NCBI GenBank assembly: GCA_026400395.1
Contig: JAPLPD010000185.1
Span: 1-32,335 of the forward strand
Length of the DNA: 32,335 nucleotides
Direction: 5' to 3'
DNA from: Alphaproteobacteria bacterium
GTDB lineage: Bacteria > Pseudomonadota > Alphaproteobacteria > Rhizobiales > Xanthobacteraceae
Below, one piece after another: positions 16,412 through 20,602 of the stretch. How positions within the stretch are numbered: the stretch's first letter is position 1; every line of letters starts with the position of its first letter. Below the pieces are notes generated by a model. That model saw only the letters and a program-made list of their open reading frames with translations, did not search any database and was not told the origin of the DNA. The translations under genes and the position numbers were made by a program.

Positions 16412-16486
<75 letters not shown>

Positions 16487-16624: not shown

Positions 16625-16672
16625 TGAATCTTGGTGCTGAGGCGCCGCTGAATCTTGGTGCTGAGGCGCTGC
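16625..16672. repeat. Two-copy 24-bp tandem repeat
   Basis: The unit TGAATCTTGGTGCTGAGGCG plus four bases is present twice in direct tandem, with a single C/T difference. It lies in non-coding DNA downstream of the tRNA. Confidence 0.85.
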
Positions 16673-16872: not shown

Positions 16873-16888
16873 GTTGATTTGGATCAAC
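16873..16888. promoter_or_regulatory. FixK/FNR-type operator upstream of the caspase-fold gene
   Basis: GTTGAT-TTGG-ATCAAC is a perfect 16-bp palindrome apart from its central four bases, and it contains the exact TTGAT-N4-ATCAA consensus of Crp/Fnr-family oxygen regulators (FNR, Anr, FixK). It is centred at 16880.5. If it acts at -41.5, transcription would start near 16922, about 47 bases before the GTG start of the next gene. A GATGAA hexamer at 16910-16915 is a weak candidate -10. No other perfect copy was noticed in the window. Confidence 0.7.
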
Positions 16889-16968
16889 GCGAATATTCTT
16901 CGATTGATTGATGAAAAATACTTCTGCGCATTGGATCTGGTGCGCGCGTACTAATACAGGAGCCCAAC

Positions 16969-19008
<2,040 letters not shown>

Positions 19009-19102: not shown

Positions 19103-19588
19103 ATGCGTCGCCTTCCAGCTTTCCTCATCGCTTTCGGCCTGTTGTTTATCCCGGCGATGGCCGTCAGCGCGCAGCCATCGCCCGACCCCAAGACGCATCC
19201 TGGTGTGTGGGGCGACATAACGACAACGCCCCAGGCGGAAGGACCCTATGGGACGGGCTTCACCTCGACAGAGCGTGTGGTCGAGCGCTGCACCGCCCTG
19301 GAATGGGCGATTAGAACTAAAAAGGCGGATGGCAGCTTCCGTTGGTATCGTCGGAACTATCAAACCGGCTGCTGCCTCGGGTGGGTCAATGCGACGATGG
19401 CATTCCTCAACTTCCACAACGAGGCCGGCAACCACACGCTCGGCGTTTGCATGCCCGAAGAGATGCATAGCGTGGACGTGGTCAGAGTATTCCTCGATTA
19501 CGTCCATAAGAATCCGGACGACCAGAAATACAATCCGTCGCTGCTGATGTACTGGGCGTTGCTCGAGAAATATCCCTGCCAGCAGTAG
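19103..19588 (+). CDS. Rap1a/Tai-family exported protein
   Basis: This 161-residue protein has a signal peptide (1-24, ending VSAQ). The mature part follows the pattern of Rap1a/Tai proteins: an early Cys63, GCCLGWVNATMAFLNF with Cys90/Cys91, GVCMPEEMHSVDVVRVFLDYV with Cys116, and a final LLEKYPC with Cys159, which could form two disulfides. Studied members neutralise type VI secretion amidase toxins in the periplasm. No amidase or secretion gene is visible here, so an immunity role is only a family-based possibility; many orphan members occur in rhizobial genomes. GGAGAT before the ATG supports the start. It lies 94 bp after the caspase-fold gene. Confidence 0.72.
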   Translation: MRRLPAFLIAFGLLFIPAMAVSAQPSPDPKTHPGVWGDITTTPQAEGPYGTGFTSTERVVERCTALEWAIRTKKADGSFRWYRRNYQTGCCLGWVNATMAFLNFHNEAGNHTLGVCMPEEMHSVDVVRVFLDYVHKNPDDQKYNPSLLMYWALLEKYPCQQ

Positions 19589-19630
19589 ATGAATCAGGCC
19601 TCGATTTCATTTCGTTACCACCATGACAAT

Positions 19631-19903
19631 ATGAAGCTTCTTCTCGGTTTGGTCTGTTTCGCATGCGCGATGGCGCACCCGGCGCAGGCCTCGGCGCCGG
19701 TTCATAAGACGATCGTTGGCTGCGTATCGAATGGCATCTTCACCAGCGATAGCGGATACGTCATCAAGCTTCGCGAACGCTCAGGCGGCCTGATGATTTC
19801 CTCGGGCATGCAAAATCGGAGGCTGCAAGTTACGGGCAATTTGCTGCCGGGTGATAATTTTTACATCGACAGACCACCGATCGTGGTGGGGCGCTGTGGG
19901 TAG
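19631..19903 (+). CDS. Small exported protein of unknown function
   Basis: From the ATG at 19631 the product is 90 residues: a signal peptide (MKLLLGLVCFACAMAHPAQASA) and a mature domain of about 68 residues. The mature part has two cysteines near its ends, IVGCVSNGIF and VVGRC, that could form a disulfide. The pattern of GYVIKLRER, RRLQVTGNLLPGDNFYID and RPPIVVG resembles a small beta-barrel; I cannot name the family. An earlier in-frame ATG at 19589 directly abuts the stop of the Rap1a/Tai gene. It would put 14 polar residues before the signal peptide, so 19631 is preferred although no good ribosome binding site precedes either. Confidence 0.65.
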   Translation: MKLLLGLVCFACAMAHPAQASAPVHKTIVGCVSNGIFTSDSGYVIKLRERSGGLMISSGMQNRRLQVTGNLLPGDNFYIDRPPIVVGRCG

Positions 19904-19999
19904 CCGTCGCGCATGGTGGCGGCGAGCGGCAACTCTAAGATGCTCTCGCGGCAGGCCGTCTGAACAGGCTATTCGACGGCCAAAGGCAATAGGTGTTTG

Positions 20000-20602
20000 A
20001 TGGGTCGATGTCGGAAGCGGCTCTGCCTTGCTATCGTCGCGTTGGTGCCGTTGACAGCGGGTCCAGTGTTTTCTCAGCAACGCAGCGATCCGATCGGAGC
20101 GATGATCAAGGTCTCAGTATTCGATCGCGCCCAGCAGATTTTTGTCGGCAGGATGCGATCAGACCAAATGGCCTGCTATGTCCGCGAGGAAGGCAGCAGT
20201 CATTCGCTGGACATTGGGGTGACCGCGGACCATTCGTTTATCCGTCTTGAAACGGGAGACTCGCGAGAGGCAACTCCGAAACCGCCCGTTCGCGTATTCG
20301 CCGGCAAACAAGGCTCAAATCGAGTCGGAAACAACGAATATGCCAGCGACGAATACGCGTTGTTGCAAGAATATGTCGGTGACATTGAATATTTCGTACC
20401 GAATCCGGATCGCGGCGATTTTGTCTTGGTAGCCAGGGGAGATGCGAAAGCATTTCTCGAAATGGTAGCGCGTGCGAGAACTGAGTTCGTGGTGGTGCAA
20501 TCGGCCACAAATAAGAAAAGCACGGATATCGTCGCAATATACAAGTTCACCAACGCAAAGGTTCTTGCGCTTCTGTCGTGCGCAAGGTCCCGCCTTCAAT
20601 AG
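20000..20602 (+). CDS. Exported protein of unknown function
   Basis: This is a 200-residue protein starting at the ATG at 20000, with AGGTG ahead of it; a TTG one codon earlier is less likely. Residues 1-26 form a signal peptide with two Arg/Lys and two Cys at the front (GRCRKRLCLAIVALVPLTA) and a cleavage site near VFSQ. The mature part begins QRSDPIGAMIKVSVFDRAQQ, is mixed alpha/beta in character with no low-complexity sequence, and ends with ALLSCARSRLQ. No membrane helix, metal motif or catalytic motif is recognised. It is the last of the four same-strand exported-protein genes, 96 bp after the previous one. Confidence 0.65.
   Translation: MGRCRKRLCLAIVALVPLTAGPVFSQQRSDPIGAMIKVSVFDRAQQIFVGRMRSDQMACYVREEGSSHSLDIGVTADHSFIRLETGDSREATPKPPVRVFAGKQGSNRVGNNEYASDEYALLQEYVGDIEYFVPNPDRGDFVLVARGDAKAFLEMVARARTEFVVVQSATNKKSTDIVAIYKFTNAKVLALLSCARSRLQ

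Follow-up and report, generated by a model that had tools for sequence, protein, structure and literature searches.

Alphaproteobacterial pseudo-orthocaspases carry a caspase p20 domain without the His-Cys dyad, belong nearly all to Rhizobiales and are tied by the main published hypothesis to anoxygenic photosynthesis (main text of PMC6426788, in which the words FNR and promoter do not occur). A caspase-family gene of B. diazoefficiens, bll3611, is listed as NnrR-activated in Table 1 of PMC6710368, with a change of -4.3-fold in the nnrR mutant and a level 2.3-fold higher under anoxia; the FixK2-like box assigned to it there, TTGAACCACGTCAG, is imperfect and weak and is located at -330. RPA4677, a caspase protein of R. 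palustris that may or may not belong to the clade described below, did not respond to oxygen (PMC12844201).

The gene studied here is, like bll3611, a caspase-family gene with a FixK2-like box, whereas only the box of bll3611 is imperfect and as remote as -330. The box shares its sequence (TTGA-N6-TCAA) and palindromic form with the Bradyrhizobium and alphaproteobacterial FixK2/FNR boxes in Table 1 of PMC6710368, and its distance to the start codon is like that of many of them. Unlike the known boxes in that source, it precedes a pseudo-orthocaspase gene, and the motif is kept in two genomes without a detected FixK/FNR-type reader. The encoded protein has the same dyad-less p20 domain as the pseudo-orthocaspases in the main text of PMC6426788, one clade of which is tied here to a predicted Crp/Fnr operator.

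In the literature searched, no paper was found that links an FNR or FixK site to pseudo-orthocaspases. An earlier note on this DNA knew of no described link between caspase-fold proteins and micro-oxic or anaerobic induction. This was too broad, as bll3611 is in print as an NnrR target (PMC6710368, Table 1) and a caspase-fold gene in a Crp/Fnr low-oxygen network is therefore not wholly new; the new part, within the literature searched, is the conserved predicted operator on a pseudo-orthocaspase clade.

Results

A perfect palindrome upstream of a pseudo-orthocaspase gene

The whole stretch of DNA analyzed here, called the window, is 32,335 bases long and comes from G000, a draft genome assembled into 369 contigs, 5.31 Mb in size and 99.16% complete. 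The features of the locus are listed in Table 1. The 679-aa product matches the caspase p20 domain PF00656 with an E value of 1.7e-27 (97 bits, cut-off 21.4), and its catalytic dyad columns hold Tyr in place of His and Ala in place of Cys. The C-terminal part is Pro-rich, and a probable signal peptide was read by eye. A plasmid search with the DNA of the gene returned only weak matches to the Pro-rich part, at 4–10% coverage.

Table 1 Features of the pseudo-orthocaspase locus and of two box-bearing genes outside its clade
Feature	Location	Strand	Basis
tRNA-Gly(gcc), upstream of the promoter and outside the switch	16412..16486	+	tRNA call
Putative Crp/Fnr-type (FNR/FixK) operator, 16-base palindrome GTTGAT-TTGG-ATCAAC	16873..16888	.	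sequence and conservation
Ribosome-binding region with AGGAG, before the GTG start	16957..16968	+	sequence
Pseudo-orthocaspase gene, 679 aa	16969..19008	+	PF00656, dyad columns
Rap1a-family small protein	19103..19588	+	PF18602, E 2.2e-9
Small ORF, 104 aa, possible operon member	19589..19903	+	ORF
ORF, 201 aa, possible operon member	19997..20602	+	ORF
L091, exact TTGAT-N4-ATCAA 153 bases before the match	G015:C29:55287-56706		
L097, exact TTGAT-N4-ATCAA 109 bases before the match	G015:C1:177425-178850		

The earlier note had reported a perfect FixK/FNR-type box centered about 88 bases before the GTG start, and both points were borne out. The sequence at 16873-16888 reads GTTGATTTGGATCAAC, its core (16874-16887) is exactly TTGAT-N4-ATCAA, and its center, at 16880.5, lies 88 bases 5′ of the GTG at 16969. 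This is the sole exact match in the window, where 0.02 would be expected by chance and where 2 of 100 dinucleotide shuffles held at least one. The looser pattern TTGA-N6-TCAA likewise matches once; since it is expected 0.28 times by chance and was present in 24 of 100 shuffles, the evidence from the window by itself is modest, and conservation decides.

Sites with up to two mismatches from TTGAT-N4-ATCAA number 15 in the window against 6.15 expected, a count that none of 100 shuffles reached. The interval from the tRNA-Gly to the promoter also contains, at 16625-16672, two tandem copies of an approximately 24-base unit (TGAATCTTGGTGCTGAGGCGC...).

The box is conserved within one clade

A quick tree built from 100 distinct caspase domains places the gene of the window inside a clade of 13 (SH-aLRT 97), and clade membership is taken from this tree. 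The tree set combined the tool-selected loci with 60 further paralogues picked by hand among the matches listed; L060 and L062 were left out as copies of L050 and L020, and the 100-row set was made after removing identical sequences and any match with fewer than 200 aligned residues. The family sample comprised 391 genomes, with at most six candidates scored per genome. Relatives of the gene with a named source come from the box-bearing Xanthobacteraceae bacterium Astr-EGSB (locus L060), from Blastochloris sulfoviridis, and from an alphaproteobacterial MAG. In every one of the 13 clade members the catalytic Cys is replaced by Ala or Ser; at the catalytic His position, seven members have Tyr, five retain His, and one has Gln.

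The earlier note had named absence of the box upstream of orthologues as a refutation; when this was checked, the box held up. Of the 13 clade members, 9 had TTGA-N6-TCAA in the 320 bp upstream, compared with 2 of the 87 other orthocaspases (Fisher P = 1.2e-7 when the window is excluded and 7.9e-7 when the near copy L053 is excluded as well). The presence of the box is clustered on the tree, with 5 changes against a shuffled mean of 10.6 and none of 500 shuffles as low. The nine promoters belong to eight genomes, G000 and seven relatives, as G306 has two copies. G010 and G001, which are of the same genus as G000, encode the two closest orthologues (the G010 assembly is 88% complete). Their upstream regions read TTGATTCAGGTCAA in G010, one base off exact, and TTGATCTGTATCAA in G001; in both, the upstream DNA and the neighbours differ from those of the window despite the box. 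The remaining boxes are TTGACCGCGATCAA (G070), TTGATCTCGGTCAA (G294), TTGATCTTCGTCAA (G247), TTGATTTCCATCAA and TTGACCTCGGTCAA (the two gene copies of G306), and TTGAGCCTGATCAA (G144). The G001 orthologue (L020/L049, G001:C65), whose box is exact, is split near codon 246 into two reading frames, either by an assembly error or by real decay.

A total of 3,584 patterns (256 half-sites with 14 spacers) were scored, and TTGA with a spacer of 6 came first, with 8 of 12 promoters against 4 for the runners-up; TTGA with any other spacer scored zero. When eight promoters were anchored on the box (a count that omits L053, a near copy of L052), the eight half-site columns were the sole invariant ones. 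The distance from the box center to the start codon is 81–102 bases in all nine box promoters, some start codons being uncertain, chiefly those of G070 and of the second G306 copy. Based on this conservation, the near-fixed distance, and the divergence of the surrounding promoter DNA, we read the palindrome as a genuine Crp/Fnr-type operator, predicted from sequence and conserved before the pseudo-orthocaspase clade.

We also considered that the palindrome arose by chance and has no function, as the 0.28 occurrences of the looser motif expected per window would allow. This was rejected as highly improbable given the contrast between clade and outsiders (9/13 vs 2/87), the near-fixed distance, and the fact that nothing else in these promoters is conserved.

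Four clade members lack a box within 320 bp upstream: those of Blastochloris, G275, and G269, and the second G144 gene. This last gene has a looser sequence, TTGCGCCTGATCAA, 1,104 bases before its caspase match; it seems to be N-terminally extended, so its true upstream region probably lies outside the 320 bp searched. The G144 locus L146 (G144:C188:1-12416) has several caspase-domain stretches on one contig, one of them with an apparent N-terminal extension. No further box-bearing orthologues were found in the genus of G306 (43 genomes) or in the order (397 genomes), and at E <= 1e-60 the order sample yielded the window genome alone.

Both outsiders with the box are His-Cys-intact orthocaspases of the same genome, G015 (Table 1). 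Their boxes are possibly an independent recruitment (rough P = 0.002, for an assumed 4,500 genes).

Downstream neighbours

A Rap1a-family gene lies directly behind the orthocaspase gene in four of the box genomes (G000, G010, G306, and G247). The G070 neighbourhood yielded no such gene, and in G001, G294, and G144 the view was prevented or limited by contig ends. The Rap1a-family protein is probably exported and is a likely functional partner of the pseudo-orthocaspase. The 104-aa and 201-aa ORFs that follow in the window have no Pfam or NCBIfam match, and none of the 10 neighbourhood loci searched contained a homologue of either.

Promoter geometry

The placement of the box was judged against the class I and class II geometry of activators. 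A center 81–102 bases before the start codon fits, as far as sequence can tell, an activator site of either class just 5′ of the core promoter; the leader would then measure roughly 20–60 bases. The transcription start at +41.5 from the box center (16922) put forward in the earlier note is not supported: the hexamer at the matching -10 place of the window, GATGAA, is poor, with better -10-like hexamers elsewhere, and the nine promoters share no -10 at a constant distance.

Regulators and cbb3 oxidase in the box genomes

In six of the eight box genomes, searches found FixK/FNR-type proteins whose recognition helix is ETVSR, and the same six have FixO. In all four genomes checked (G306, G144, G001, and G070), TTGA-N6-TCAA also precedes fixN, the gene for cbb3 subunit I (COX1 by Pfam), which marks the motif as that of standard FixK/FNR targets there. 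Low-oxygen control of the clade genes is thus a well-supported prediction in these six genomes. To this extent the induction by FixK2 or a related low-oxygen regulator suggested in the earlier note is supported. It did not extend to the window's own genome, since no FixK/FNR-type (FixK2-like) protein and no FixO/cbb3 oxidase were found in G000, 99.16% complete as it is, or in G010, its closest sampled relative; FixK2-type micro-oxic induction is unsupported there, and it is for G000 that the low-oxygen reading is weakest.

One explanation for these two genomes is that the box is a relic, or that the regulator gene is missing from incomplete assemblies, the circuit being or having been ordinary FixK control. 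Both assemblies are drafts. Six genomes have a fixK-type gene as well as fixO, and in five of these the two are a few kb to about 13 kb apart, so that one assembly gap could hide them together. We regard this as unlikely, if worth serious attention: an exact box in G000 and one with a single deviating base in G010, both amid DNA that is not conserved, do not look like decay, and within the genus just 5 of 11 genomes have FixK-like proteins (at least 53% identity), which makes true absence common.

The box may instead be read by another member of the family. G000 encodes five Crp/Fnr proteins with a clear HTH_Crp_2 domain. L012 has a partner in G010 that is 73% identical; among NCBIfam models it matches FnrL best, with 90.8 bits and hence far below the cut-off of 300, and its best solved relatives are FNR-type regulators. 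It has a CxxC and a central Cys but lacks the third N-terminal Cys seen in the Fnr-type protein of G144. The recognition helix of L012 reads VHTNKT. In FNR, the recognition residues expected for TTGAT are E--SR. L010, whose best match is CRP-like, has the helix ARENVSR, and no counterpart was found among the G010 regulators examined. The FnrL-like regulator common to G000 and G010, with its altered recognition helix, would be the best candidate reader of the box in these two genomes.

Such a reader could also respond to another signal: NO (NnrR/DNR types), a cAMP-like ligand, or aromatics, for which AadR is a Crp/Fnr-type example. The operator would then be real, and low oxygen would not be the direct cue, at least in G000. 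The retention of the box in G000 and G010 although FixK was not found, the presence of L010 and L012, and the listing of bll3611 as an NnrR target in Table 1 of PMC6710368 all speak for this alternative. We consider it rather unlikely, given the FixK/FNR types in six of the eight box genomes and the motif before fixN in four of four; moreover, L010 is without a G010 counterpart and the L012 helix is without E--SR.

Other exact palindromes in G000

The exact palindrome occurs 10 times in the G000 genome, the reversed control pattern not once. Based on ORFs and Pfam assignment, three are inside genes and seven are intergenic and upstream of a gene, namely those for the orthocaspase, a FAD aromatic hydroxylase, a Rieske oxygenase, a sulfatase, PEPCK, a sulphur transporter, and PPK2. 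At least 7 of 10 intergenic sites would occur with a binomial probability of 9e-6 to 9e-4, for an assumed 10–20% of intergenic DNA. About 3.3 exact sites were expected (P = 0.002, or 0.13 if this rough chance rate is doubled). The neighbours of the boxes other than that of the orthocaspase (oxygenases, PEPCK, PPK2, sulfatase, and sulphur transporter) are not classic FixK targets, and the genes for the FAD hydroxylase, Rieske oxygenase, PEPCK, sulphur transporter, and PPK2 (loci L001, L002, L005, L007, and L009) are a possible unusual regulon.

Discussion

Our preferred explanation, which we hold to be moderately probable as a whole, is that a Crp/Fnr operator is under selection and that FixK/FNR mediates low-oxygen activation in most of the clade. 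The palindrome would be a functional operator for a dimer of the Crp/Fnr family, kept by selection before one pseudo-orthocaspase clade in Xanthobacteraceae-type alphaproteobacteria, and is most likely an activating FixK/FNR site. At low oxygen, FixK or FNR would bind the box in most of the clade and activate transcription of the exported pseudo-orthocaspase, often together with the Rap1a-family gene behind it. Several results speak against this explanation: no FixK-type protein or FixO in G000 and G010, four clade members without a box, no -10 at a constant distance, atypical neighbours of the other G000 boxes, an excess of exact sites in G000 that depends on a rough chance rate, and an R. 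palustris caspase protein, RPA4677, that does not respond to oxygen. A more specific proposal is rather doubtful, namely that dead exported caspase homologues are a conserved part of the low-oxygen response and that, in at least one lineage (G000 and G010), FixK was lost and the FnrL-like regulator with the altered helix took over the site.

Bacterial pseudo-orthocaspases still await a function, and a conserved FNR/FixK-type operator, as predicted here, gives a directly testable condition, oxygen limitation, and a class of regulator. G000 and G010 would offer a case of an operator outliving its apparent regulator. For the family, the operator would suggest that what ties pseudo-orthocaspases to phototrophs is in fact life at low oxygen.
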